Shown here piece after piece: positions 4,950 through 20,120 of a stretch of DNA of 20,148 nt (positions are counted from its first letter, which is position 1; each line of letters opens with the position of its first letter). The position numbers and the translations under genes were made by a program. The DNA is from a virus, in IMG/VR virus record IMGVR_UViG_3300028920_000618, positions 1 to 20,148 of that record, one strand, 5' to 3'. The notes beneath the pieces are model-generated. The model saw only the letters and a list, made by a program, of their open reading frames with translations, made no database searches and was not told the DNA's origin.

Positions 4950-5558
4950 CTATCTTTCTATATATTTAATAAACTCTTCAGGATCTAGTTTCATAGCCTT
5001 GTTTATTGTAAGCTTATCTTTCTTAAGAAGTTTATTGCTGAGCAGTGCTTCTTTTTCTTTGTCTGTAATGCCAGTGATGTCATTAGTTTTTAATATATGA
5101 TGTACATGTTCAGCCATGTAAGCAATCATGAATGCATCTGCATCATCATCTGTATCAAATCTAATGTCAAACTGATCATAAACCTTAAGCAAATAAGCTG
5201 AGTCTTTTTTTATGTTGCCATTACCCAAACAAAATTTCTTCACTGTCTTAGGTGAAAAAACATAGAACGGTACATCAGGTAGCACCCTCTTGATAAGCAT
5301 ATTAATACACCCACCAAGCTCACCTATCTGATACACCGCTCCTTTAGAAGAATAGGAATAGCCCTCCTTTGCGATACATGTTATCTCTTTTGTGTCGTTT
5401 ATATATTGACTGAGCGAGTTGACAATATGTACAACACGATCAAAGCCTTCGCATTGTTTTGAGGGAGGGGTGATATGCAAAGACCTCTTTATTACTCCTG
5501 AATCCCAAGAGCAGATAGCCGTACCAGTCAAAGAAGGATCTATTCCTATTACTGTCAT
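4950..5558 (-). CDS. RuvC-like Holliday junction resolvase
   Basis: This 202-residue protein begins MTVIGIDPSLTGTAI, the first strand of a RuvC/RNase H fold with metal ligand D7. A second acidic ligand is probably E65 (IAKEGYSYS), and the C-terminal acidic cluster DTDDDAD at 135-141 with A-F-M-I-A after it supplies the remaining ligands, as in RuvC. The enzyme should cut branched DNA formed during replication and recombination, in keeping with RecA, SSB and helicase genes in the same operon. A good Shine-Dalgarno (AGGAG) lies a few bases before the ATG. The C-terminal 50 residues are lysine-rich and not part of the core fold. Confidence 0.85.
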   Translation of the reverse strand: MTVIGIDPSLTGTAICSWDSGVIKRSLHITPPSKQCEGFDRVVHIVNSLSQYINDTKEITCIAKEGYSYSSKGAVYQIGELGGCINMLIKRVLPDVPFYVFSPKTVKKFCLGNGNIKKDSAYLLKVYDQFDIRFDTDDDADAFMIAYMAEHVHHILKTNDITGITDKEKEALLSNKLLKKDKLTINKAMKLDPEEFIKYIER

Positions 5559-10729: not shown

Positions 10730-11836
10730 CTAAATTTTGAATCCTCTTTTGTTCTCTACTTCTTTTAAATCATTTTCTCTATTAGCACCGACATTTTCTT
10801 CTTGTTGTTTTTGTACACGTATCGTATTAAGCATGGTAAGGGTCCAGTCTGTTGTGAATGCACCAAGTGTCATTTGAATATCCTTACCACGGTTCATCTC
10901 AATTATTCTCTGTTTTTCTGCACAGAAGATCATCATTAGCTCCTTTAATACCTCAGGCTTGTGATTTCTCAGGATGTTTTTGATAGTTTTCCCTTCTCTT
11001 GCCCAATTTGATGGTAATTGAAGGATACCGTCACGACTAGCTCTGAGTATGCAAAAATACTTCAAAAAGTCGTCTGCTTTCCAGTTTTCTACTGGTTTTT
11101 TAGATAACTCCTTGAAACCAAGGTACTTATGAAAGTTTTCTATGTTATCGCAAGCATCTTGGCTGGAAATGATCTCACTTTTCCCACTTTTTTCCTTCTC
11201 TTTTTTCTCAATCTCTATCTTCCCCTCTATAGAGATATGTTTGTATGTAACATTACGTACATGTTTGTTATGTTTGTTATATGTTTGTTTATAAGAGAGA
11301 GCCTTTTCATCTTCTTCCATGCTCTGGTGACGACCTTGGTCGTCATTATAAGTCTCTTTGTTACTACAACTTGCGTCCACTGCACCGCAGTGCGAATTTG
11401 ATACTACGGTGTCACCGCAGTTATCTTCACCGCAGTCGGTTTTTGATACTGCGGTTGATTCACTATTTTCACATTTGAAATTATCTGTTATATACATAAC
11501 AGTACCAGTAAATTTACCACCATCACGCTCTGTCTCAGTGGTATATATGATACCAAGATCTTCCATCTGCTTAAGGGCTGGTAATAACCAAACTCTTGAC
11601 AGACCAGAATATTTTGATATGGTTTTAGTGTAGTTCTTTATTGGAGCGTTGCCAAACTCGGCATGCAGTTCTGATATTGTAAGGTATAGGTTGCGGTACT
11701 TTGTAAGTTCAGCACCTTTGAATTGTTCTCTTAGATTGCTTAGGGTTTCTCTACTTTGCCAGCAGAATGGTGTGTTTCTTTTTACATTTATAGAGTCCAC
11801 AAAACCTCGCTCACATACATAAAAGATCTCGCTCAA
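10730..11836 (-). CDS. Replication initiator / helicase-loader-like protein (TTG start)
   Basis: First gene of the leftward operon, 368 residues. Residues 40-115 look like a winged helix (ISELHAEFG, ISKYSGLSRVWLLPALKQMEDLGII), as in phage replication-origin binding proteins. Residues 120-230 are low-complexity linker, and residues 235-350 form a helical C-terminal domain (FHKYLGFKELSKK, FCILRASRDG, IKNILRNHKPEV) of DnaD/loader type. The longest frame starts at TTG 11836-11834, about 12 bases from the predicted transcript start; GTG at 11800-11798 after GCGAGG is an alternative. The linker is encoded by a repeat array, as in lambda O, whose gene contains the origin. Family is inferred from domain order. 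Confidence 0.7.
   Translation of the reverse strand: MSEIFYVCERGFVDSINVKRNTPFCWQSRETLSNLREQFKGAELTKYRNLYLTISELHAEFGNAPIKNYTKTISKYSGLSRVWLLPALKQMEDLGIIYTTETERDGGKFTGTVMYITDNFKCENSESTAVSKTDCGEDNCGDTVVSNSHCGAVDASCSNKETYNDDQGRHQSMEEDEKALSYKQTYNKHNKHVRNVTYKHISIEGKIEIEKKEKEKSGKSEIISSQDACDNIENFHKYLGFKELSKKPVENWKADDFLKYFCILRASRDGILQLPSNWAREGKTIKNILRNHKPEVLKELMMIFCAEKQRIIEMNRGKDIQMTLGAFTTDWTLTMLNTIRVQKQQEENVGANRENDLKEVENKRGFKI
11237..11288. repeat. AT-rich direct repeats inside the initiator gene
   Basis: Four copies of ATGTTTGT (ACAAACAT on the coding strand) start at 11237, 11261, 11270 and 11281. They encode the KHNKHVRN part of the linker. They lie about 100 bases from the GC-richer iteron array and could form the unwinding side of an origin. 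Confidence 0.6.
11383..11455. repeat. Iteron-like array in the initiator gene (candidate origin)
   Basis: CACCGCAGT occurs exactly at 11383, 11413 and 11428. TTTGATACTACGGT at 11397 and TTTGATACTGCGGT at 11442 are a second repeat, whose end ACTGCGGT is the inverse of ACCGCAGT. So five sites sit in 73 bases in both orientations. The encoded protein region is a Cys/Asp/Ser linker with no domain character, so the repetition is better explained by a DNA-level function such as initiator binding. This copies the lambda O arrangement. Confidence 0.6.
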
Positions 11837-11846
11837 ATTCCGAGTG

Positions 11847-11869
11847 CAGACGAAATTGTACAGACGAAA
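11847..11869. promoter_or_regulatory. Direct repeats around the -10 box (candidate operator)
   Basis: CAGACGAAA occurs at 11847-11855 and 11861-11869, 14 bases apart, with the -10 hexamer of the leftward promoter between them. A regulator bound here would block the promoter. The binding protein is unknown. Confidence 0.45.
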
Positions 11870-11883
11870 CGGGATTAAGTCAA
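11855..11883 (-). promoter_or_regulatory. Promoter of the leftward replication operon
   Basis: On the minus strand TTGACT (11883-11878) and TACAAT (11860-11855) are separated by 17 bases, a good sigma70 promoter. Transcription should begin near 11848, leaving a very short leader before the initiator start. Confidence 0.75.
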
Positions 11884-11902
11884 CAACTTTTTCAAATAAA
11901 TG

Positions 11903-11930
11903 TTTGCATCCAAACCAAAAAGGGTATAAT
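11903..11930 (+). promoter_or_regulatory. Promoter of the tmRNA gene
   Basis: TTTGCA (11903-11908), 16 bases, then TATAAT (11925-11930). The predicted start near 11937 leaves a short 5' leader of about 14 bases for RNase P to remove before mature tmRNA at 11951. The -35 box is weak. Confidence 0.6.
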
Positions 11931-11950
11931 TTAGATGGAACCGAAATAAC

Positions 11951-12292
11951 GGGGACGAATTAGGATCGACTGGATCATTGAAAAACAAGGTTGCATTCCG
12001 TGGTTGTCGGATGGCCACGTAAAACCCCGACAAAACAATAACTGCAAACGCAGAACTAAAAATGGCTGCTTAAAATAGCAACCCCCGAAAGTGGTAGAGG
12101 TCACGGTAACCATGAGTAAGGACAACAACAGTGACTGACACTGTGGAAAGACACGGTGACTGCGACAAAGTCGTTGACTGCTTTGGAAAGACAAGCAAAG
12201 GTTGTTGGATGAACCTATCGCCAACTATGAATGTATAAGCCTGTTTGGACTGATTGCAGGACGAGGAGTGCAATTCTCCTCCGTCTCCACCA
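11951..12292 (+). ncRNA. ssrA: Transfer-messenger RNA (tmRNA)
   Basis: The 342-base gene begins GGGGACG and ends CGTCTCC-A-CCA; these ends pair as a 7-bp acceptor stem with one G-U. A T-arm with loop TGCAATT precedes the 3' strand. The tag frame starts at resume codon GCA 12044 and ends TAA at 12071-12073, encoding ANAELKMAA after the Ala carried by tmRNA itself; the terminal Ala-Ala is the usual protease signal. GC-rich pseudoknot-like segments follow the tag (for example GACAACAACAGTGACTG and its near repeats to 12200). Its job is to rescue stalled ribosomes and tag the unfinished protein. A phage copy may favour rescue during infection or change the tag. No G3-U70-only variant is seen, but G3-T70 is present, the AlaRS determinant. 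Confidence 0.95.
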
Positions 12293-12295
12293 TAT

Positions 12296-12317
12296 AAAGG
12301 AGGTAAGCATGTTGTAA
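12296..12317 (+). other. Two-codon minigene-like site (ATG-TTG-TAA)
   Basis: AAAGGAGG (12296-12303), five bases, then ATG-TTG-TAA (12309-12317). The Shine-Dalgarno is stronger than that of most genes here, yet the frame encodes only Met-Leu. It lies four bases beyond the tmRNA 3' end and just before the next gene's own Shine-Dalgarno. It resembles lambda bar minigenes, which cause peptidyl-tRNA drop-off. Confidence 0.4.
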
Positions 12318-12341
12318 GTATTTTAAAAGGAGACTTATAAC

Positions 12342-12623
12342 ATGAGTAGATCTAGAAGGAAAACACCTATCGGTAGTTGGTGTGGTTCTGCAAGCGAGAA
12401 AGATGACAAGCGTATTTGCAATCGCAAACTACGTCACACAAACAAAATCAAACTCAATCACTATGAGGATGATACCATCTTTATGATACAGGATGAATCC
12501 CTATCAGCATGGGATATGAATAAGGATGGTAAGATGTATTTCGGTGATATGAAGAATGACCCTACCGTGCTTTGGGATGGAACAACATGGCACGATGAAT
12601 ACATCAAGCTGATGAGAAAGTAG
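12342..12623 (+). CDS. Small basic hypothetical protein with EF-hand-like loop
   Basis: This 93-residue protein begins with a strongly basic stretch (MSRSRRKTPIGSW) followed by a basic RICNRKLRHTNKIKL region, which suggests nucleic-acid or ribosome contact. Residues 58-69 (DMNKDGKMYFGD) match an EF-hand calcium loop: Asp/Asn/Asp at positions 1, 3 and 5, Gly at 6, a hydrophobic residue at 8, and Asp instead of Glu at 12. AAAAGGAG lies nine bases before the ATG. It is the first full gene after the tmRNA, and its stop codon touches the next promoter. I do not know its function. The calcium loop is a pattern match only. Confidence 0.75.
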   Translation: MSRSRRKTPIGSWCGSASEKDDKRICNRKLRHTNKIKLNHYEDDTIFMIQDESLSAWDMNKDGKMYFGDMKNDPTVLWDGTTWHDEYIKLMRK

Positions 12624-12651
12624 TTGACACATTAGTATAGTTCTGTATAAT
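12624..12651 (+). promoter_or_regulatory. Consensus sigma70 promoter before the structured leader
   Basis: TTGACA (12624-12629), 16 bases, TATAAT (12646-12651): both hexamers are perfect. Transcription should begin near G12658, exactly at the 5' strand of the first RNA stem. It starts directly after the preceding stop codon. Confidence 0.85.
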
Positions 12652-12657
12652 CAAGAT

Positions 12658-12829
12658 GCTACACAAAGTAGGGGCGAGTTCCCGAAACGGTAGCTATGGA
12701 TGCACGACAGCTTGCTGAGTGCCGCTGTCCTATCCGAGATATAGATTAGAAGTACTATAATATGGTTTAGTATGAAACAGGGTGTCGTGTACTAAGAGTG
12801 CACGACATCCACCTTATTGAGAGGAAAAT
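12658..12829 (+). ncRNA. Structured leader RNA with competing pairings
   Basis: A 172-base untranslated stretch folds well on paper. GCTAC (12658-12662) pairs with GTAGC (12690-12694) around a small GGG/CCC hairpin. GGAT (12698-12701) pairs with ATCC (12732-12735) and encloses GACAGC/GCTGTC (12706-12711, 12724-12729). A 10-bp hairpin (12780-12789 with 12801-12810) precedes the Shine-Dalgarno GAGAGG at 12819. CACGACA occurs both at 12703 and at 12801, and each can pair with TGTCGTG at 12783-12789, so two folds exclude one another. There is no T-run, so control of translation or a stable small RNA is more likely than termination. No known riboswitch class was recognised. Confidence 0.55.
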
Positions 12830-13027
12830 ATGGGCGTAGAATTAAAAGAGATAAGCGATAAAGACAGGGATGGGTACAAAATAAAATACATGCATCAGAC
12901 AGATAACATCTGTCCTGGGTGTAATACAAATAAATTAGAACACGGTGTTCTAGTTCATGATGATAAAATAATGGATAAGGTTTACACGTGTGTTTGTGGA
13001 AAGTACTACAGGCGTTATGATAGCTAA
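12830..13027 (+). CDS. Zinc-ribbon small protein
   Basis: This 65-residue protein has two cysteine pairs, C28-x2-C31 (CPGC) and C54-x1-C56 (CVC), consistent with a single zinc ribbon. Between them HGVLVHDDKIMDKVYT gives beta-strand character. The tail KYYRRYDS is basic and aromatic. GAGAGG is five bases before the ATG, after the structured leader, so the leader probably controls this gene. It overlaps the next gene by 11 bases. Zinc ribbons of this size commonly bind nucleic acid or a protein partner; nothing more specific can be said. Confidence 0.75.
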   Translation: MGVELKEISDKDRDGYKIKYMHQTDNICPGCNTNKLEHGVLVHDDKIMDKVYTCVCGKYYRRYDS

Positions 13028-13388
13028 CGCTAGTATAATCGACATATATTTCTATTCTGTATACGTAATAACACTACTCGTTTGCTTCTATTTATTATAC
13101 AGAAACTACAAATATAGAAAAGACATGGGTTTCTTTGTACATACCATCAAGCGATTAACAAAGAGCCAGATCATAGCAGAATTTGAACACTACAAACAGA
13201 GAGTTATGATCCATTCCGTATTAAGACACATTGGTGTGGATCAGAACGGCTGTATATCTCTTGAAAGAAAGATAGCAACCAAAGCAGCAGACAAAATCAA
13301 CGAGAAGTATGGCAAGACCCTTATAGAGGTTGACTATGGCATCAACACAGATGGTGAAGTAGACCAGTTCATAAAAATTCACATTTAA
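13017..13388 (+). CDS. Small membrane-anchored hypothetical protein
   Basis: A 123-residue protein with one hydrophobic segment at residues 7-28 (IIDIYFYSVYVITLLVCFYLLY) followed by a basic RNYKYRKD, so the N-terminus is probably outside and the body cytoplasmic. The body is helical with no recognised domain (TKSQIIAEFEHYKQRV, KATKAADKINEKYG-like). I choose ATG 13017 inside the end of the zinc-ribbon gene, with AGG five bases before it, rather than the longer frame from 12990. It is probably co-translated with the zinc-ribbon gene. Function unknown; membrane topology is a prediction. Confidence 0.7.
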   Translation: MIANASIIDIYFYSVYVITLLVCFYLLYRNYKYRKDMGFFVHTIKRLTKSQIIAEFEHYKQRVMIHSVLRHIGVDQNGCISLERKIATKAADKINEKYGKTLIEVDYGINTDGEVDQFIKIHI

Positions 13389-13389
13389 C

Positions 13390-13417
13390 TTGACGAACTG
13401 GTATAGATCTATATAAT
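13390..13417 (+). promoter_or_regulatory. Promoter before the Met tRNA and nuclease genes
   Basis: TTGACG (13390-13395), 16 bases, TATAAT (13412-13417), directly after the membrane-protein stop codon. A second TATAAT at 13448 has no good -35 box. Confidence 0.7.
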
Positions 13418-13463
13418 TTTTTTGTTATAACTATTGTTTTAAGAGGATATAATATAGAAAGAT

Positions 13464-13538
13464 TGCGGGTGGCGAGGCTGGGCCTCGATTGGTCTCATAA
13501 GCCATTGATTGCAGGTTCGATTCCTGTGCCCGCTACCA
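13464..13538 (+). tRNA. tRNA-Met(CAU), initiator-like 1-72 mismatch
   Basis: Anticodon loop CTCATAA with CAT. D-stem CGAG/CTCG, T-arm loop TTCGATT, encoded CCA preceded by A73. Acceptor pairs 2-7 are GCGGGT/GCCCGC while 1-72 is T-T, unpaired. An unpaired 1-72 is the initiator hallmark, but the three G-C pairs of initiator anticodon stems are not complete. An alternative register pairs G65 onward as 7 bp but loses the CCA. Confidence 0.85.
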
Positions 13539-13547
13539 TATTTGAAA

Positions 13548-14108
13548 ATGAGTAATTACGCTTATCGCAAGGAAGAAGGCAGGACCGACCAGGAATTCAA
13601 GGAAGCATTGGAAAGGTGGGAGTCTGTGGAAATTCCTTGGGCAAAAGTTTTAGCACATCAATTCATCGGTCAGGACATCAAAATAGAAAAAATAATAGAC
13701 AAGAACCATAAGCAAAGAGGGAAAGTATTACAAGGCAATGTTCAAGCAGAGCCAGATTTGGTTTTTATAATAGACGGGGAGCAATACCCTGTAGAACTAA
13801 AGACAGCATATTCATACAACTTCTTTAGTATAAAAGTACACTCGCTAGAGTCAGCAATAAAAAGAGAAGCAAGAATCATTCTTGTTAACGAAAGCAGATG
13901 GGTACAAATACTTAGCGATGGTATGAAATTCCTTCTTGATAATTTCCCACATGAGATATACGAAAAATTCTCACCCAAACCAGCAATAAGGGTGCACATG
14001 AACCAAGAAAGAACATTAGCAAAAGACAAGATTATACATATAAAGAAATGGAATAAGAATGCCAAAGCAAAGATAGAGGAGTTCAGGCATTACCTGTTTA
14101 AGAAATGA
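13548..14108 (+). CDS. PD-(D/E)XK nuclease-like protein
   Basis: This 186-residue protein contains a textbook PD-(D/E)XK motif: P69-D70 (AEPDLVFIID), then E83-L-K85 (YPVELKTAYSY), giving PD-x12-ExK. A conserved-looking helix precedes it. The C-terminus is lysine-rich (KKWNKNAKAKIEEF). The start at 13548 follows the tRNA-Met gene by nine bases with no clear Shine-Dalgarno; longer frames would start inside the tRNA and are rejected. The stop overlaps the phosphoesterase start as ATGA. It should cut DNA, but the target (host DNA, recombination intermediates or a homing site) is unknown. Confidence 0.75.
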   Translation: MSNYAYRKEEGRTDQEFKEALERWESVEIPWAKVLAHQFIGQDIKIEKIIDKNHKQRGKVLQGNVQAEPDLVFIIDGEQYPVELKTAYSYNFFSIKVHSLESAIKREARIILVNESRWVQILSDGMKFLLDNFPHEIYEKFSPKPAIRVHMNQERTLAKDKIIHIKKWNKNAKAKIEEFRHYLFKK

Positions 14109-14698
14109 TATTCATAGGTGACGTTCATGGCAAGTGGGGTAAGTACCACGAAATAATAAACTCAACCAAAGAAGAAACCCTACAGGTTGGAGATATGGGT
14201 ATCTTCTCTTACTGGGATGTTCAGTACAAATTCAAACCAGGGGACAATGATTATTTTATAAGGGGTAATCATGATAACCCAGACTTTTGTTTAGCACACC
14301 CACAGCATTTAGGAGACTTTGGCTATTTAAATGACAACAGCCTATTCTTCGTTGCTGGGGCTTGGAGCATAGATTGGGAACACAGAACACCAGAGGTAGA
14401 CTGGTGGAAGCATGAAGAACTATACGCTGACGAACTAGCCCTTGCCTACTTGCTCTACAAAGAAAAGAAGCCAAAGATCATGGTTACACATGATGTACCA
14501 GCTACACTGTACCATGAATTCTTTTCATACCTACCAGAGCAACAGACAAGGACCACTCATTATCTCGACAAGATGTGGAGAGAACACATGCCAGAACTGT
14601 GGGTGTTTGGTCACCATCACAAGAGCATACGACAACAAGTAGAAGACTGTCTTTTTGTTGGTTTGGGTGAGCTTGAAATATTTAGGTATGACTTATAG
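14105..14698 (+). CDS. Calcineurin-like metallophosphoesterase
   Basis: This 197-residue protein carries all metal-binding motifs of the family in order: GDVHG at 5-9, GD-M-G near 29-32, GNHD at 54-57, THDVP near 127, and GHHH near 168. It should hold two metal ions and cleave phosphomonoester or phosphodiester bonds. Length matches small phage and bacterial Ser/Thr phosphatase or nucleotide-diesterase types. It overlaps the nuclease upstream by four bases (ATGA), so the two are coupled. Possible substrates are phosphoproteins, nucleotide second messengers or RNA ends; the last would fit the tRNA-rich setting but is only inference. Confidence 0.9.
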   Translation: MIFIGDVHGKWGKYHEIINSTKEETLQVGDMGIFSYWDVQYKFKPGDNDYFIRGNHDNPDFCLAHPQHLGDFGYLNDNSLFFVAGAWSIDWEHRTPEVDWWKHEELYADELALAYLLYKEKKPKIMVTHDVPATLYHEFFSYLPEQQTRTTHYLDKMWREHMPELWVFGHHHKSIRQQVEDCLFVGLGELEIFRYDL

Positions 14699-14705
14699 GA
14701 TATGT

Positions 14706-15329
14706 ATGATAGATATATTTAATCAAATCACAATGTCAGATCAAGATCTGTCTACATGTAGAATATTTGCTGAAAATATAGACATAGAAAACTATCAAAA
14801 AAGAAACCAATACAACGAAGAAAACGTAAGGTATCAACACTTCGTGGGGAAAGTAGGAGAGTTTCTGGTAAGACGTAAGCTAGATAGATATATAACACTT
14901 AGCGATCCAGACTGCGAGATATACGACAAAGACAGAAAGACATGGGACTCAGATCTTAGGGGTGGAAACATATGTATACAAGTCAAGACAATAGATTGGG
15001 ACAGATACTCAGAAAACAAATGGGAACCATCATGGGTTATCCAAAAACAAGAAATAGGTTCTCATTATGGTATGGATAAAGAAATATATGACAACACAAC
15101 CGATGAAAGAAAAATGATCGCATTTGTTTGGATTCGTAAATACAATGGCATACAAGGAAAGATAAAGAGTCTTATACCAATACCATTTCTACATAAATAC
15201 AATCTACTAAAAGATCCTTTCATCAAAAGAATGATTGGAATAAAAGAGGCTGTATACTACAAAGATCTTCTTAGCAATGGATTAATAGAGAACATAGGTG
15301 ACTATGCAAAAGAAATTCAAAAGAGTTAG
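14706..15329 (+). CDS. Restriction-endonuclease-like PD-(D/E)XK protein
   Basis: This 207-residue protein has the layout of type II restriction-like nucleases: a GKVGEFLVRRKL helix at 48-59 with E52, then D81-S-D83 and, after a beta turn, I91-Q92-V93-K94, the D-xn-(E/Q)-x-K core. W and R rich strands follow. I choose ATG 14706 with AGGA five bases before it over in-frame ATG 14688. Its 3' end overlaps the adenine methyltransferase by 26 bases, the typical order and coupling of a restriction-modification pair. The nuclease call rests on the motif, and a specificity cannot be read. Gln in place of Glu at the third position is tolerated in several families. Confidence 0.65.
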   Translation: MIDIFNQITMSDQDLSTCRIFAENIDIENYQKRNQYNEENVRYQHFVGKVGEFLVRRKLDRYITLSDPDCEIYDKDRKTWDSDLRGGNICIQVKTIDWDRYSENKWEPSWVIQKQEIGSHYGMDKEIYDNTTDERKMIAFVWIRKYNGIQGKIKSLIPIPFLHKYNLLKDPFIKRMIGIKEAVYYKDLLSNGLIENIGDYAKEIQKS

Positions 15330-16206
15330 AAGTCCTTTCCGTTATCCTGGGGCAAAGACTAGAATCTTAGATAAGATCATAGGTAGCATGGAACACCATC
15401 TACAGTCTACAGAATCATTTGTTGATGTGTTTGTTGGTGGCGGTTCTGTTTCGCTACAGGTAGCATCAATGTTTCCAAGCATAAAAGAAATGTATCTAAA
15501 CGATCTTGATATTGGAATACATTGTTTTTGGGAGTGTCTTTCAAAACCAAAGCTCATGAAGCAGCTTTGTTCTATAATAGAAAAGACAGATGCTAGTCTT
15601 GATGCTTTTTTATCTGTAAAGAACTCAGATAATAAAAAATCATCGTGTGTTACAAATGCATTCAATGCTATATTCCTTAATAGAACAACCTTCTCTGGCA
15701 TTATGGATGCTGGTCCAATAGGAGGCATGAAACAACAGAGCAAGTGGGACGTTGGTTGTAGATATAATCAGAAAGCATTAGTTGGTTTGATTGAAAAAAT
15801 AAATTCAGAAGTTGGACCATCTATCAATAGTATGAACATGCACTTCTCCGATCTTATTGACACCCTAGACGATGGCGAAAGAGTATTCTATTTTGATCCA
15901 CCATACTATCACAAAGGCAATGATCTTTACAGAGTAAAAATGTCAATCGATGATCATGTTCTTTTGTCAAGCATGGTTAGAGATATGAAGTCTCCATGGG
16001 TTATGAGTTACGACTACTGTGATGAGATTATAGAAATGTATGAATGGGCTAGTATTAATACAATAGATATGAGAACATCTATCAATGGCAAGAAAGACAA
16101 CTGGACAGAGAAGAAAGAATTAATCATAACAAAAAAAGAAAAAAAAATAAAAAGTGTTGACTTTGAACAAAAGTCGGCTATCATACAACAGAAGGAAAAA
16201 TTATGA
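15304..16206 (+). CDS. D12-class DNA adenine-N6 methyltransferase (Dam-like)
   Basis: This 300-residue enzyme shows all D12-class motifs: SPFRYPGAKTRI at 10-21, the SAM-binding FVDVFVGGGSVSL at 39-51, LNRTTFSGI at 125-133, and the catalytic FDPPYY at 197-202. It transfers methyl from SAM to adenine N6; the class commonly targets GATC, a site present in this window. ATG 15304 has AGG five bases before it and is preferred over GTG 15298. It follows, overlapping by 26 bases, a PD-(D/E)XK protein. It could therefore be the modification half of a restriction-modification pair or protect phage DNA from host enzymes. The tail is lysine-rich. Confidence 0.92.
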   Translation: MQKKFKRVRSPFRYPGAKTRILDKIIGSMEHHLQSTESFVDVFVGGGSVSLQVASMFPSIKEMYLNDLDIGIHCFWECLSKPKLMKQLCSIIEKTDASLDAFLSVKNSDNKKSSCVTNAFNAIFLNRTTFSGIMDAGPIGGMKQQSKWDVGCRYNQKALVGLIEKINSEVGPSINSMNMHFSDLIDTLDDGERVFYFDPPYYHKGNDLYRVKMSIDDHVLLSSMVRDMKSPWVMSYDYCDEIIEMYEWASINTIDMRTSINGKKDNWTEKKELIITKKEKKIKSVDFEQKSAIIQQKEKL

Positions 16207-16225
16207 GACGATTTAGAACATTATC

Positions 16226-16377
16226 TGCTGATACCATGAAACCCAGTTATATACTGGGCCAGCAACCACTCCATCGTTGTAATCCAGCGTCATGGGTGAT
16301 TGAAGGTACAAGCGGGTAGTGGTCTAAAGTACCGAACTTTAAAGGGCCACTCCCAAAAAGAGTGGCTCTTTTTTTTT
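16226..16377 (+). promoter_or_regulatory. Attenuator or riboswitch-like leader with alternative pairings
   Basis: The 5' part folds as TGCTG/CAGCA (16226-16230, 16260-16264) enclosing CCCAGT/ACTGGG (16242-16247, 16253-16258). Segment 1, ACCACT (16265-16270), can pair with segment 2, AGTGGT (16318-16323). Segment 2, as AGTGGTC, can instead pair with segment 3, GGCCACT (16345-16351), and segment 3 pairs with segment 4 in the terminator. This 1-2, 2-3, 3-4 logic is that of transcription attenuators. A small TAAAGT/ACTTTA hairpin lies at 16325-16341. The class and the signal are unknown. Confidence 0.55.
16343..16377 (+). terminator. Intrinsic terminator with T9 tract
   Basis: AGGGCCACTC and GAGTGGCTCT form a 10-bp stem (one G-T) around a 7-base loop, followed directly by a run of T (16369-16377). 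It precedes a gene on the same strand by about 13 bases, so it can act as a conditional terminator. Confidence 0.85.
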
Positions 16378-16389
16378 GGACTAAACTTG

Positions 16390-16587
16390 ATGGATAAATT
16401 GGTGAGGTTTTTTGATGAACTATGCAGTAAACGGGACCATAAGCTTGCTAGGAAGGCTAAGCTATTTGCCAAAGCCTACCGAGATAAGAAGTCTCGTGAC
16501 CGCCAAGAGGAAATCAAGAGAGAAAGGATGCAGTTCTGGTGCATCACAAGTGAAGAAGAATACCAGAAGCGGTTTGGAAACCGATAA
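16390..16587 (+). CDS. Small highly charged hypothetical protein
   Basis: The 65-residue product is very basic and helical (KRDHKLARKAKLFAKAYRDK, then SRDRQEEIKRERMQFW), suggesting nucleic-acid or ribosome binding. I do not recognise it. A longer frame from 16300 would be read through the terminator hairpin, so ATG 16390 is preferred. There is no good Shine-Dalgarno; GTG at 16402 is an alternative start. Its expression should depend on read-through of the leader terminator. It is the last protein gene before the tRNA array. Confidence 0.55.
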   Translation: MDKLVRFFDELCSKRDHKLARKAKLFAKAYRDKKSRDRQEEIKRERMQFWCITSEEEYQKRFGNR

Positions 16588-16635
16588 CATATAGTTTCGT
16601 AACGATTTGATCTTTGACAATCTGTGTCTTTTTTT

Positions 16636-16721
16636 GGGTAGGCTTCCGAGTTGGAGAACGGAACCAGTCTGTAAAACTGGTGGCTATGCCTGAGTGAGTT
16701 CGATTCTCACCCTGCCCACCA
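16636..16721 (+). tRNA. tRNA-Tyr(GUA)
   Basis: Acceptor GGGTAGG/CCTGCCC, anticodon stem CCAGT/ACTGG with loop CTGTAAA (anticodon GTA), the long variable arm usual for bacterial Tyr tRNA, T-loop TTCGATT, A73 and encoded CCA. Confidence 0.95.
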
Positions 16722-16728
16722 TATACTT

Positions 16729-16804
16729 GTGGCGTTAGGCGAATGGTTAAGCCGCTGCCCTTTCAAGGCAGAAATTGCAGGTTCAAATCCTGTACGCCAT
16801 ACCA
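16729..16804 (+). tRNA. tRNA-Glu(UUC)
   Basis: Acceptor GTGGCGT/ACGCCAT with G1-U72, anticodon stem CTGCC/GGCAG, loop CTTTCAA (TTC), T-stem GCAGG/CCTGT, A73 and CCA encoded. Confidence 0.95.
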
Positions 16805-16805
16805 T

Positions 16806-16885
16806 CGAGTAGTTGGGGAGTCTGGTCACCCCGCCTGATTTGGGATCAGGAGAACTCGCAGGTTCAAATCCTGCCTACTCGACCA
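16806..16885 (+). tRNA. tRNA-Pro(UGG)
   Basis: Acceptor CGAGTAG/CTACTCG, D-stem GGGG/CCCC, anticodon stem CCTGA/TCAGG, loop TTTGGGA (TGG), T-stem GCAGG/CCTGC, A73 and CCA. The variable loop has seven bases, slightly long. Confidence 0.95.
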
Positions 16886-16890
16886 TTTAT

Positions 16891-16964
16891 GCGGGTATCG
16901 TATAGTGATAATACCCTAGCCTTCCAAGCTAGTGACGAGAGTTTGATTCTCTCTACCCGCTCCA
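16891..16964 (+). tRNA. tRNA-Gly(UCC)
   Basis: Acceptor GCGGGTA/TACCCGC, anticodon stem CTAGC/GCTAG, loop CTTCCAA (TCC), T73 (the Gly discriminator in bacteria) and encoded CCA. Confidence 0.95.
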
Positions 16965-16969
16965 TACAC

Positions 16970-17011
16970 GTCCCACTCTCTGAGTATTCGGGGGTTCATA
17001 GTGGGGCACCA
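16970..17011 (+). other. tRNA-like minihelix (possible tRNA remnant)
   Basis: GTCCCACT (16970-16977) and AGTGGGGC (17000-17007) pair as 8 bp with one G-T, followed by ACCA exactly as at a tRNA 3' end. Only 22 bases lie between, with no D or anticodon arm. It fills the gap between the Gly and Asp tRNAs. It may be a deletion remnant or a small acceptor-like RNA. Confidence 0.4.
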
Positions 17012-17012
17012 C

Positions 17013-17090
17013 GGTCCCATAGTGTAGTCTGGCCTAGCACACTAGATTGTCGATCTAGTAGCGGGGATTCAAATTCCCCTGGGACCGCCA
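17013..17090 (+). tRNA. tRNA-Asp(GUC)
   Basis: Acceptor GGTCCCA/TGGGACC, anticodon stem CTAGA/TCTAG, loop TTGTCGA (GTC), T-stem GGGGA/TCCCC, G73 (Asp discriminator) and CCA. Confidence 0.95.
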
Positions 17091-17097
17091 TTTACAT

Positions 17098-17175
17098 GGA
17101 CAGGTAATGCTAACTGGCAAAGCTCAAACTTTCAAAAAGTTTGGTTTGGGAGTTCGACTCTCCCCCTGTCTACCA
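17098..17175 (+). tRNA. tRNA with Leu anticodon (CAA) but short variable loop
   Basis: Acceptor GGACAGG/CCTGTCT with G1-U72, anticodon stem AAACT/AGTTT, loop TTCAAAA (CAA), variable loop only GGTTT, T-stem GGGAG/CTCCC, A73 and CCA. Bacterial Leu tRNAs normally have a long variable arm, so charging identity is uncertain. Confidence 0.8.
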
Positions 17176-17215
17176 TATAATCCAATGATAACAAGGTAGG
17201 TTATCTGAAAACATA

Positions 17216-17243
17216 TTGACAATATATCATATATCATTATCAT
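17216..17243 (+). promoter_or_regulatory. Promoter of the first HNH gene
   Basis: TTGACA (17216-17221), 16 bases, TATCAT (17238-17243). The ATG at 17251 is only seven bases past the -10 box, so the message may be leaderless. Confidence 0.6.
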
Positions 17244-17250
17244 GTATATT

Positions 17251-17673
17251 ATGAAACAAATAAAGATTCTTAATAGGTATGACAACAATAGTGATGGTTA
17301 TGATGGATATATACGTGTTTGGCTATCAGACGGAAGGGTCATTGGCGAACATCGTTTCATTATGGAACAAAAAATAGGAAGAAAGTTACAACCAAACGAA
17401 ATAGTACATCACAAAGATGGAAACAAAAAAAATAATCATATAGACAACCTAAGCATAGAAACAAGATCTTTCCATTCTGCATCTCATCAAGAACCAGGAG
17501 AGATGATTTCATTGCTTTGTGATTATTGCAATAAGCCATTTACACGAGAAATGTATCGCATTAGAACAAAAAGAAAACATGGACAGAAGTTTTTTTATTG
17601 TAGTAGATCGTGTGGTACAAAACATCAATTCAAAATAAGGAACGATAGCTTAAAAGGTAAAGTGCTAGACTGA
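17251..17673 (+). CDS. HNH homing endonuclease with C-terminal zinc finger
   Basis: This 140-residue protein has an HNH_3-type nuclease core: H34 (GEHRFIME), then EIVHHKDGNKKNN at 50-62 with H53/H54, and N66. Four cysteines follow, C90-x2-C93 and C117-x3-C121, as a zinc finger. Such enzymes nick or cut near their own insertion site and spread by copying into empty alleles. I choose ATG 17251 rather than ATG 17242, which overlaps the -10 box. The last 11 codons and the TGA stop lie inside the Phe tRNA gene (35-base overlap), so its C-terminus is encoded by the D-arm and anticodon stem. It interrupts the tRNA array and is free-standing, not in an intron. Confidence 0.85.
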   Translation: MKQIKILNRYDNNSDGYDGYIRVWLSDGRVIGEHRFIMEQKIGRKLQPNEIVHHKDGNKKNNHIDNLSIETRSFHSASHQEPGEMISLLCDYCNKPFTREMYRIRTKRKHGQKFFYCSRSCGTKHQFKIRNDSLKGKVLD

Positions 17674-17713
17674 AGATCTGGTGTCCTCCGTTCAATTCGG
17701 GGTCGTTCCACCA
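17639..17713 (+). tRNA. tRNA-Phe(GAA)
   Basis: Acceptor GGAACGA/TCGTTCC, anticodon stem CTAGA/TCTGG, loop CTGAAGA (GAA), T-loop TTCAATT, A73 and CCA. Its first 35 bases are also the 3' end of the HNH gene. Confidence 0.93.
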
Positions 17714-17714
17714 T

Positions 17715-17788
17715 GCCGCCATACTTCAATGGTAGAAGAATAGTTTTGTAAACTATCAATCTCAGTTCGATTCTGAGTGGTGGCTCCA
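17715..17788 (+). tRNA. tRNA-Thr(UGU)
   Basis: Acceptor GCCGCCA/TGGTGGC, anticodon stem ATAGT/ACTAT, loop TTTGTAA (TGT), T-loop TTCGATT, T73 and CCA. Confidence 0.94.
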
Positions 17789-17795
17789 TTTATTT

Positions 17796-17873
17796 GGTAG
17801 GGTAGGCAAATTGGTGAAGCCGCTTGTCTTATAAACAAGTGATGTGCGAGTTCAATCCTCGCCCCTACTACCA
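17796..17873 (+). tRNA. tRNA-Ile(UAU)
   Basis: Acceptor GGTAGGG/CCCTACT with G1-U72, anticodon stem CTTGT/ACAAG, loop CTTATAA (TAT), T-stem GCGAG/CTCGC, A73 and CCA. Most bacteria read AUA with a modified CAU anticodon, so a UAU version is a phage-supplied alternative. Confidence 0.93.
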
Positions 17874-17874
17874 T

Positions 17875-17949
17875 GCCCTCGTAGTGTAGTAGATAGCACG
17901 ATTGACTACGGATCAATTAGCAAGGGTGCAAATCCTTTCGAGGGTACCA
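17875..17949 (+). tRNA. tRNA-Arg(ACG)
   Basis: Acceptor GCCCTCG/CGAGGGT with G1-U72, anticodon stem ATTGA/TCAAT, loop CTACGGA (ACG), T-loop TGCAAAT instead of TTC, A73 and CCA. A34 would need deamination to inosine by host TadA to read all CGN codons. Confidence 0.93.
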
Positions 17950-17953
17950 CATA

Positions 17954-18007
17954 TAAGTATATATGTCCACATTAATAAACGACATATATATCTCGTTTGA
18001 CATATAT
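17954..18007. repeat. AT-rich inverted repeat between Arg and Val tRNAs
   Basis: TATATATGTC and GACATATATA form a perfect 10-base inverted repeat around a 13-base loop, and a third GACATATATA copy lies immediately before the Val tRNA, overlapping its 5' flank. It may be a processing hairpin or a remnant of insertion. Confidence 0.45.
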
Positions 18008-18084
18008 AGTCCCATCGCTTAGCTGGCAAAAGCATCTGGTTTACACCCAGAAGATCCTCCGTTCGAGTCGGAGTGGGACTACCA
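18008..18084 (+). tRNA. tRNA-Val(UAC)
   Basis: Acceptor AGTCCCA/TGGGACT, anticodon stem TCTGG/CCAGA, loop TTTACAC (TAC), T-stem CTCCG/CGGAG, A73 and CCA. Confidence 0.94.
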
Positions 18085-18085
18085 T

Positions 18086-18171
18086 GCACCCTTCACACAA
18101 TGGTAGTGTACCAGATTTTTAATCTGGCGAGAGCAATCTCATTGGAGGTTCAATTCCTCCAGGGTGTACCA
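18086..18171 (+). tRNA. tRNA-Lys(UUU) with a long variable arm
   Basis: Acceptor GCACCCT/AGGGTGT with G1-U72, D-stem ACAC/GTGT, anticodon stem CCAGA/TCTGG, loop TTTTTAA (TTT), then a 16-base variable arm with stem GAGA/TCTC and GCAA tetraloop, T-stem GGAGG/CCTCC, A73 and CCA. Lys tRNAs normally have a short variable loop; a long arm is expected only in Leu, Ser and Tyr tRNAs. Confidence 0.85.
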
Positions 18172-18178
18172 TTTATTT

Positions 18179-18253
18179 GCTGCTATGGTGTAACAGTCAG
18201 CACGTGACCCTGATAAGGTTAAAGTCTTGGTGCAATTCCAGGTAGCAGTACCA
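18179..18253 (+). tRNA. tRNA-Ile(GAU)
   Basis: Acceptor GCTGCTA/TAGCAGT with G1-U72, anticodon stem TGACC/GGTTA, loop CTGATAA (GAT), T-loop TGCAATT, A73 and CCA. Confidence 0.93.
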
Positions 18254-18254
18254 T

Positions 18255-18329
18255 GGGGACGTAGTTCAGTGGTAGAACACCTGAATCATAATCAGGAAGT
18301 CGTAGGATCGTAACCTACCGTCCCTACCA
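18255..18329 (+). tRNA. tRNA-Met(CAU), elongator or Ile2 type
   Basis: Acceptor GGGGACG/CGTCCCT with G1-U72, anticodon stem CCTGA/TCAGG, loop ATCATAA (CAT), T-loop ATCGTAA, A73 and CCA. CAT could also be Ile after lysidine modification; with a separate Ile(UAU) present, Met is more likely. Confidence 0.9.
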
Positions 18330-18338
18330 TACCAATAT

Positions 18339-18429
18339 CGAAGGGTGTCAGAGAGGCTTATCGAGCACGGTTGCTAACCGTGTGGACCTTAATAGGGTTC
18401 CATGGGTTCAAATCCCATCCCTTCGGCCA
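18339..18429 (+). tRNA. tRNA-Ser(GCU)
   Basis: Acceptor CGAAGGG/CCCTTCG, anticodon stem with loop TTGCTAA (GCT), long variable arm as usual for Ser, T-stem ATGGG/CCCAT, G73 and CCA. Confidence 0.94.
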
Positions 18430-18434
18430 TATAT

Positions 18435-18511
18435 AGTCTCGTAGTTCAATTGGCTAGAGCATCAGGTTTTGATCCTGAAAGTTTGAGGTTCGACTCCTCA
18501 CGAGACTGCCA
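18435..18511 (+). tRNA. tRNA-Gln(UUG)
   Basis: Acceptor AGTCTCG/CGAGACT, anticodon stem TCAGG/CCTGA, loop TTTTGAT (TTG), T-stem TGAGG/CCTCA, G73 and CCA. Confidence 0.94.
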
Positions 18512-18512
18512 T

Positions 18513-18586
18513 AACCCTGTGGTGAAGAGGTATCACGTCTGGTTCTGGTCCAGAAGTCCTGGGTTCAATTCCTGGCAGGGTTGCCA
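18513..18586 (+). tRNA. tRNA-Gln(CUG)
   Basis: Acceptor AACCCTG/CAGGGTT, anticodon stem TCTGG/CCAGA, loop TTCTGGT (CTG), T-loop TTCAATT, G73 and CCA. It follows Gln(UUG) by one base. Confidence 0.94.
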
Positions 18587-18604
18587 CCGCTTTTTAAAAA
18601 CGTC

Positions 18605-18632
18605 TTGCACCTTTATAAAATATCATTATAAT
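18605..18632 (+). promoter_or_regulatory. Promoter of the second HNH gene
   Basis: TTGCAC (18605-18610), 16 bases, TATAAT (18627-18632). Unlike the other two inserted genes this one has a leader with AGGAGG. Confidence 0.6.
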
Positions 18633-18657
18633 CTCTTTGTATAATATAGGAGGTTAT

Positions 18658-19161
18658 ATGCAAAACAAATTACAGAAGGTGATTATATATGCAAAAAACA
18701 AAGGAATGAGAGTAGAACCTGATGGAACAATAATCGGAATGAAAAACAAACCAATTAAAGGAACGATAGATCATAGGGGATACATTAAGGTATGCGTTAA
18801 GTTTCACAAAAAAGATATCCCTGTTTATATTCATAGATTACAAGCATATCAGAAATTCGGAGATAAGATTTTTGAAGATGGTATGCAGGTAAGACATCTT
18901 AATGGTGACAGCCAAGACAACAGTTGGAGTAATATAGCAATAGGAACAATGCAACAAAATCACATGGACAAAAAACCAATGACAAGATTAAATGCAGCGA
19001 GAAAGGCTGCTTTAGCACAGAGAAAATACACAAACAATCAGGTGGAAGAGATTAGATCAAGAAAAAAGAGCGGTGAATCTTTGAATTCTTTGGCAAGATC
19101 TTTTAACACAACAAAAGGTCATATATCACAAATAGTTAACAAAGTTATATACAACTATTAA
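18658..19161 (+). CDS. HNH homing endonuclease with C-terminal helix-turn-helix
   Basis: This 167-residue protein has an HNH core: H59 (VYIHRLQAYQKFG), VRHLNGD at 78-84 with H80 and N82, N92 and H102 in the following MQQNHMDK. The C-terminal 50 residues (NNQVEEIRSRKKSGESL, then a helix-turn-helix NSLARSFNTTKGHISQIV) recognise DNA. I choose ATG 18658, four bases after AGGAGG; the frame from 18637 would start within the promoter spacing. It fills the gap between Gln(CUG) and Ser(UGA) and ends three bases before the Ser tRNA. It is probably mobile by homing and interrupts no gene. Confidence 0.88.
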   Translation: MQNKLQKVIIYAKNKGMRVEPDGTIIGMKNKPIKGTIDHRGYIKVCVKFHKKDIPVYIHRLQAYQKFGDKIFEDGMQVRHLNGDSQDNSWSNIAIGTMQQNHMDKKPMTRLNAARKAALAQRKYTNNQVEEIRSRKKSGESLNSLARSFNTTKGHISQIVNKVIYNY

Positions 19162-19164
19162 TAC

Positions 19165-19258
19165 AGAGGAGTTGACCCCAGTAGGTGCGGGAACTGGTTT
19201 TGAAAACCAGGGGATTGTGAAAGCAGTCTTGGGGGTTCGAGTCCCCCCTCCTCTGCCA
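19165..19258 (+). tRNA. tRNA-Ser(UGA)
   Basis: Acceptor AGAGGAG/CTCCTCT, anticodon stem CTGGT/ACCAG, loop TTTGAAA (TGA), long variable arm, T-stem GGGGG/CCCCC, G73 and CCA. Confidence 0.94.
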
Positions 19259-19277
19259 CAAAAACCATACCATTTTT

Positions 19278-19353
19278 GGGTCCATAACTCAATTGGCAGA
19301 GTACCTGGTTCTTACCCAGGAAGTTGGGGGATCGTTGCCCTCTGGACCCACCA
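19278..19353 (+). tRNA. tRNA-Lys(CUU)
   Basis: Acceptor GGGTCCA/TGGACCC, anticodon stem CCTGG/CCAGG, loop TTCTTAC (CTT), T-loop ATCGTTG, A73 and CCA. It has the normal short variable loop, unlike the Lys(UUU) gene upstream. Confidence 0.93.
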
Positions 19354-19358
19354 AATAA

Positions 19359-19487
19359 CTGGCAATATGTTACCACTTAACCCCAAAAAAGGTTACTAAC
19401 TCGCAACATATTACCTCTTATAATGTGCATTTCTAGGCAACTTACAACCCTTAATGCATGATAATGTGTACATTAAGGCAACTTACA
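19359..19487. repeat. Intergenic direct-repeat block between Lys and Leu tRNAs
   Basis: Two repeat families. A 27-base unit at 19420-19446 and 19461-19487 shares ATAATGTG and AGGCAACTTACA (22 of 27 bases equal, 41-base period). A 22-24 base unit at 19359-19380 and 19399-19422 shares GCAAYATRTTACC and CTTA. No gene or tRNA was found in this 163-base gap. Confidence 0.6.
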
Positions 19488-19516
19488 GTTCGTAAGGAAT
19501 GAATAGTCATACATAT

Positions 19517-19593
19517 GGTGCGGTGGGCTAATTGGCAAAGCCATGTGATTTAAGCTCACATGAATGGGGATTCGACTTCCTCCCGCACTACCA
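19517..19593 (+). tRNA. tRNA with Leu anticodon (UAA) but short variable loop
   Basis: Acceptor GGTGCGG/CCGCACT with G1-U72, D-stem GGC/GCC, anticodon stem TGTGA/TCACA, loop TTTAAGC (TAA), variable loop TGAAT only, T-loop TTCGACT, A73 and CCA. It resembles the CAA tRNA at 17098 in its D-loop and T-loop, so the two may be paralogues. Confidence 0.82.
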
Positions 19594-19600
19594 AAAATTC

Positions 19601-19628
19601 TTGACCATAAGATTATTTATGGTATCAT
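19601..19628 (+). promoter_or_regulatory. Promoter of the third inserted gene
   Basis: TTGACC (19601-19606), 16 bases, TATCAT (19623-19628). The ATG at 19639 lies ten bases beyond, so the message would have almost no leader, as for the first HNH gene. Confidence 0.6.
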
Positions 19629-19638
19629 AAAATATATT

Positions 19639-19896
19639 ATGCTTTCTATCAGAATCAAAAAGACATGTGAAAGATGTGGTAAAAAATATAATGATGTTGA
19701 ATCACACATAAACAGAAGAAAGTATTGCGGTGTAAAGTGTAGCCGACTTGCCTCAAGAAAATGTAAACACCCAACCAAAAGGGAGTTACTTGCACTGCTC
19801 AAGAACAATAGCTTTTGTGCCATTGGTAGACTGTTCAATGTCTCAGACAATGCAGTCAGGAAGTGGGCAAAGCAATACAATATCATACCCCAATAA
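19639..19896 (+). CDS. Zinc-finger/HTH protein, probable remnant of a homing endonuclease
   Basis: The 85-residue product has C10-x2-C13 and C30-x3-C34, a zinc finger like that of the first HNH gene, and a C-terminal helix-turn-helix (PTKRELLALLKNNSF, then IGRLFNVSDNAVRKWAKQYNI) common at the end of HNH homing enzymes. No H-N-H catalytic motif is present, so it is either the DNA-binding part left after deletion or a repressor-like protein. I choose ATG 19639; the longer frame begins inside the Leu tRNA. Its last codons and TAA lie in the first ten bases of the Arg(CCU) tRNA, the same arrangement as the first HNH gene. Confidence 0.75.
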   Translation: MLSIRIKKTCERCGKKYNDVESHINRRKYCGVKCSRLASRKCKHPTKRELLALLKNNSFCAIGRLFNVSDNAVRKWAKQYNIIPQ

Positions 19897-19961
19897 CTTA
19901 ACGCAAAAAGTACTGCTCTCCTAAAGCAGGAATGGAGGTTGGATTCCTCCTTGGGGTACCA
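19887..19961 (+). tRNA. tRNA-Arg(CCU)
   Basis: Acceptor ACCCCAA/TTGGGGT, anticodon stem CTGCT/AGCAG, loop CTCCTAA (CCT), T-loop TTGGATT with G at the usual C56, A73 and CCA. D-stem ACTT/AAGT. It overlaps the stop of the inserted gene by ten bases. Confidence 0.88.
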
Positions 19962-19966
19962 AATAT

Positions 19967-20041
19967 GCTCGTATAGCACAATGGATAGTGCCCTGGATTT
20001 CTAATCCAGTCATCTAGGTTCAATTCCTAGTACGAGTACCA
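19967..20041 (+). tRNA. tRNA-Arg(UCU)
   Basis: Acceptor GCTCGTA/TACGAGT with G1-U72, anticodon stem CTGGA/TCCAG, loop TTTCTAA (TCT), T-stem CTAGG/CCTAG, A73 and CCA. Confidence 0.94.
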
Positions 20042-20046
20042 CATAT

Positions 20047-20120
20047 TCCAGTATGGTGTAATGGTAACATAAACGGCTGTTAACCGTTAGATCTTGGTCC
20101 GATTCCAAGTACTGGAGCCA
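20047..20120 (+). tRNA. tRNA-Asn(GUU)
   Basis: Acceptor TCCAGTA/TACTGGA, anticodon stem AACGG/CCGTT, loop CTGTTAA (GTT), T-loop TCCGATT, G73 (Asn discriminator) and CCA. Confidence 0.93.

Follow-up and report, generated by a model that had tools for sequence, protein, structure and literature searches.

A structured leader lies in a viral genome between a methylase gene (15298-16206) and the first of its tRNA blocks (beginning at 16636), and we propose that it acts as a transcription attenuator controlling read-through into the next open reading frame (ORF) and that tRNA block. We put the probability of this reading at about 0.42; the broader claim, that it terminates transcription conditionally in whatever way, we regard as an even bet. 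The predicted folds place a P1-closed domain, an antiterminator and a strong intrinsic terminator in succession, and in a folding calculation the position of a ribosome on a short ORF in the leader decides which of the last two forms. The window analysed spans an entire IMG/VR virus record (20,148 bases) and encodes RecA, a DnaB-like helicase, a D12-class DNA methylase, and a metallophosphoesterase, together with 24 tRNA genes called by ARAGORN. The features discussed are collected in Table 1.

Table 1. Elements of the leader and its neighbours, in window coordinates
Feature	Position	Strand	Details	Basis
Sigma-70-type promoter-like site	16157-16184	+	TTGACT-16-TATCAT	10 of 12 consensus matches
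Candidate leader ORF	16203-16319	+	38 codons, MRRFRTLSADTMKPSYILGQQPLHRCNPASWVIEGTSG; translation putative	Reading frame and Shine-Dalgarno
Structured leader domain	16212-16328	+	P1 closing hairpins P2 and P3	Pair probabilities mostly >0.9
P1 (anti-antiterminator)	16212-16217/16323-16328, 16219-16229/16311-16321, 16232-16235/16305-16308	+		Folding
Hairpins inside P1	16242-16258 (P2); 16263-16302 (P3)	+		Folding
Antiterminator hairpin	16318-16351	+	16318-16325/16344-16351 and 16326-16330/16336-16340	Folding
Intrinsic terminator	16341-16377	+	Stem 16341-16352/16360-16371, T run 16369-16377	Folding
65-aa ORF, doubtful gene	16390-16587	+		ORF only
tRNA block 1	16636-17175	+	Tyr, Glu, Pro, Gly, Asp, Leu	ARAGORN

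Proposed mechanism

In the mechanism that we favor, RNA polymerase would start near 16191, a position placed purely by consensus match from the promoter-like site, and would make a leader of about 187 nt. In the undisturbed leader, P1 (16212-16235 with 16305-16328) would tie up 16318-16328, and formation of the terminator would then halt transcription. Were the 5′ strand of P1 occupied or melted, 16318-16330 would be free to pair with 16336-16351, consuming the 5′ arm of the terminator, and the antiterminated polymerase would go on to transcribe the next ORF and the first tRNA block. The likeliest occupant is a ribosome, although we name it as the trigger only tentatively. A slow ribosome over the first third of the leader ORF, where arginine codons occupy positions 2, 3, and 5, would then give read-through, and fast translation to the stop codon would cover segment 2 and restore termination.

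Predicted folds

The original prediction for this locus (16226-16377) was of a terminator, an antiterminator, and an anti-antiterminator built from four motifs that could pair 1-2, 2-3, or 3-4. All four motifs are where it put them (ACCACT at 16265, AGTGGTC at 16318, GGCCACT at 16345, and GAGTGGCTC at 16360), and the three-part layout fits the predicted folds and positions, except that the strand of the anti-antiterminator had been misassigned. Pairing 3-4 is the terminator stem. It carries the T9 run that had been described, on a stem of 12 bp rather than 10 and with a 7-base loop; it is the sole strong terminator in the window, and it stands ahead of the presumed controlled genes. Pairing 2-3 is likewise present and is longer than first thought, at 8 + 5 bp with a 3-nt bulge and about -12.5 kcal/mol. 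By position, and in the folding of this one sequence, the antiterminator excludes both lower P1 and the terminator.

Pairing 1-2 is a different matter. With ACCACT at 16265 as segment 1, its pair probability is about 0, and a fold made to include it is 16 kcal/mol less stable (-30.5 vs. -46.5); we therefore reject this motif as segment 1. Segment 2 is instead tied up by 16212-16229, most of which falls beyond the interval first marked. The original prediction also overlooked the promoter-like site, the Shine-Dalgarno sequence, and the 38-codon ORF, and made no mention of the downstream tRNA block.

Without the terminator, the leader domain folds at -46.5 kcal/mol, compared with -28.4 (sd 3.5) for shuffled sequences (z = -5.2), and none of 2000 shuffles was as stable. 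Elsewhere in the window, a few segments of 125 nt, among them a coding one, also reach a z of about -5, so the stability of the leader is by itself no proof of function. The strongest local fold in the window (5224-5348, minus strand, z about -5.4) falls on the coding strand of an ORF at 4950-5558.

Promoter-like site and downstream genes

From 11001-20100 we collected promoter-like sites that agree with the consensus at 10 or more of its 12 positions. On the strand of the leader, 8 of the 12 such sites have a 16-bp spacer; on the opposite strand, none of the 4 does. The site ahead of the leader is one of these eight, a set whose members also stand upstream of a tmRNA gene and of a tRNA-Met, and whose member at 12624 is a perfect consensus. 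Between the terminator and the first tRNA block, no promoter-like site starts (16377 to 16636).

Two other loci with sites of this kind deserve mention. The tmRNA gene (11951-12292, plus strand; RF00023, 106 bits), preceded by a 16-bp-spacer site at 11903, received no ARAGORN call, and its tag, read by eye, is ANAELKMAA. At 12624-12829 (plus strand), the perfect sigma-70 consensus TTGACA-16-TATAAT leads into a structured region some 175 nt long (z = -3.3) that includes a 14-bp hairpin; this region lies upstream of an ORF at 12830, has no Rfam match, and is a candidate for a second leader or small RNA.

The first tRNA block comprises the genes presumed to be under the control of the leader. The ORF that directly follows the terminator, originally described as a small basic protein, does exist, with its ATG at 16390; as a gene it is doubtful, given a weak Shine-Dalgarno, codon usage that is not clearly coding, and the lack of any match when it was compared with Pfam, PHROGs, phage records, and viral contigs. 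The Shine-Dalgarno of an overlapping frame from 16415 is better. Farther along, three ORFs lie amid the tRNA genes on the plus strand (17242-17673, 18637-19161, and 19564-19896), two of which look by eye like HNH-type endonucleases.

The leader ORF

The leader ORF has a Shine-Dalgarno sequence, AGAAGGA at 16190-16196, directly after the putative start of the RNA, and its ATG at 16203 overlaps the stop codon of the methylase gene. Translation is possible. The Shine-Dalgarno pairing, at -5.7 kcal/mol, is middling (about 10% of all ATGs equal it), and the codon usage resembles that of non-coding frames. Attenuators whose stop codon is placed deep in segment II are predicted to show little basal read-through (PMC1183508), and the stop of the leader ORF, TAG at 16317-16319, likewise falls within segment 2.

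The arginine codons near its start are not accompanied by a long run of any one regulatory codon. Arginine tRNA genes are absent from the first tRNA block and are found downstream at 17875, 19887, and 19967; this mismatch between the arginine codons and the tRNAs of the block counts against an attenuator.

Predicted response to ribosome position

Until polymerase has made the 3′ arm of the terminator, P1 and the antiterminator are predicted to lie within about 1 kcal/mol of each other, and without a ribosome the antiterminator takes a share of 13-30% at this stage. When a ribosome was represented as a mask over codons 2-14, the probability of the antiterminator rose to near 1; when the mask was moved to the stop codon, it was 0 and the terminator formed. 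Ribosome position thus decides between antiterminator and terminator, as in an attenuator, at the level of the calculation. It is important to remember that the state with the completed terminator lies about 10 kcal/mol below the antiterminated one in energy, and any switching must therefore be kinetic.

We summarized switching by how far blocking of the 5′ arm of the terminator rises. This leader scores 0.67, within the range of six leader-peptide attenuators of Escherichia coli (0.41-0.76). With the ribosome at the stop codon, blocking is 0.15 for this leader, 0.07-0.19 for thr, trp, and phe, and 0.33 for leu; the high values for his (0.59) and ilv (0.94) make this sub-test imperfect even for true attenuators. 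The statistic was defined after the sequence had been seen, so the null percentages are suggestive only: an equal or better rise was reached by 3.5% of shuffled leaders and by 1.2% of the terminator-like sites taken from other phage contigs (n = 161), and a joint criterion was satisfied by 0.5% of the shuffled leaders and by none of the 161 natural sites.

These controls bear on another explanation, that an ordinary terminator closes the methylase operon and that the upstream structure and the competing pairing arose by chance. A few percent of shuffled leaders and of natural terminator-like sites do match the competing hairpin or the switch, as this explanation would have it. The stability of the domain, a promoter of the type that recurs in this phage, and the results of the joint criterion all speak against it, and we consider it distinctly unlikely.

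The main rival to an attenuator is an independent gene for a small RNA of about 187 nt, equipped with a promoter, a constitutive terminator, and possibly a small peptide, in which the antiterminator would be incidental. The promoter, the compact and stable fold, and the strong T9 terminator would all suit such a gene; small RNAs have been reported in phages (PMC9241854), and SgrS and Spot 42 of E. coli are annotated with small ORFs. Set against this, the switching statistic of the leader exceeds those of all 12 E. coli small RNAs to which it was compared (0-0.45), and the first tRNA block would be left without a recognizable nearby promoter. On balance we find a small RNA gene possible but doubtful.

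Comparison with known systems

If the leader works as proposed, it works most like the leader-peptide attenuators of enteric bacteria (thr, trp, his, phe, leu, and ilv). It shares with them a promoter, putative in our case, a short ORF with a Shine-Dalgarno, a leader of similar length, alternative 1:2, 2:3, and 3:4 pairings, and a strong terminator, and when folding was calculated it answered to the place of the ribosome as they do. There are also differences: the enteric attenuators precede biosynthetic genes, whereas this leader belongs to a phage, precedes a doubtful ORF and tRNA genes, and has neither a relative that we found nor a long run of a regulatory codon. We do not file it as a proven attenuator, since translation of the ORF and control by its codons are things we infer at most.

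Transcriptional riboswitches present their elements in the order of a multi-hairpin domain closed by P1, an antiterminator, and a terminator. As in these, the 3′ strand of P1 in our leader doubles as the 5′ strand of the antiterminator; the leader differs in lacking an Rfam family and in holding an ORF with a Shine-Dalgarno. A ligand or a protein could in principle stabilize or melt P1 independently of translation, and a very stable three-way-junction domain followed by antiterminator and terminator, with an ORF whose codon usage looks non-coding, would be in keeping with this. Riboswitches of the glutamine class do occur in tmRNA-bearing phages, riboswitches and tmRNAs being described as rare in phages (PMC9004378). 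The leader matches no Rfam family at gathering or relaxed thresholds and has no relatives in which a conserved core could be recognized, and a riboswitch-like or protein-binding leader appears unlikely to us.

Another structured phage RNA found between a promoter and a terminator is the put RNA of HK022, which is about 70 nt long, has two stem-loops, and acts without dedicated proteins (PMC9378689). Our leader, which directly follows a putative phage promoter and leads into a terminator, could play a similar role, in which the RNA binds polymerase directly so that terminators are ignored. The put RNA has no pairing that is mutually exclusive with the terminator, however, and needs none, and in size and fold our leader departs from it, with a domain of 117 nt and a long closing helix; we judge this very improbable.

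Structured RNAs beside tRNA genes have also been reported in phages, and GOLLD, ROOL, and the long RNAs of phage K (PMC9241854) resemble the leader in adjoining such genes. The leader is much smaller than these, has no Rfam match, and runs directly into a terminator with a competing antiterminator.

Searches for relatives

The original prediction recognized no class for this leader, and the Rfam scan agreed with that view. The best relaxed matches had E values of 0.3 to 0.8, far under gathering scores, and rested largely on the terminator hairpin; no T-box match appeared in the leader even at E values up to 10. A tRNA-like reading of the leader was dismissed, as ARAGORN calls nothing there.

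Scans of viral contigs with the methylase, the 65-aa ORF, RecA, the helicase, a 93-aa ORF, and two RNA patterns gave no homologue of the leader. The RecA relatives among these contigs are about 51-52% identical at best, and the matches to the RNA patterns, which included several repeated coding sequences, were discarded as chance-like. Bacterial genomes scanned with a pattern returned 35 matches, none with covariance-model support. We also ran a covariance model of the domain against about 2.2 Mb of retrieved sequence and against 25 complete viral records; besides four weak matches (E 0.9) seeded by the search pattern, it recovered nothing but the leader. The leader was likewise absent from the stretches examined of four RecA-bearing relatives, which had been picked by tmRNA match (three over the cut-off and one below), and a DNA search of annotated phages gave tRNA or chance matches only. 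With no homologue found, every pairing described here rests on one sequence.

Possible meaning for phage tRNA arrays

Phages carry tRNA arrays, and to our knowledge little has been established on how the expression of such arrays is timed or limited. The interest of the leader lies in its link to one of these blocks; a limited search of the open-access literature yielded no case of a leader-peptide attenuator ahead of a phage tRNA block. In its fullest and most speculative form, which we think improbable at present, the proposal is that a ribosome-sensing attenuator opens the tRNA block when translation of the leader ORF slows, so that the phage would supply itself with tRNAs chiefly at times when the capacity to translate runs low. 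If true, attenuation would be in use outside amino-acid metabolism, and a leader-peptide attenuator before a phage tRNA block would tie the supply of tRNA directly to the speed of the ribosome.
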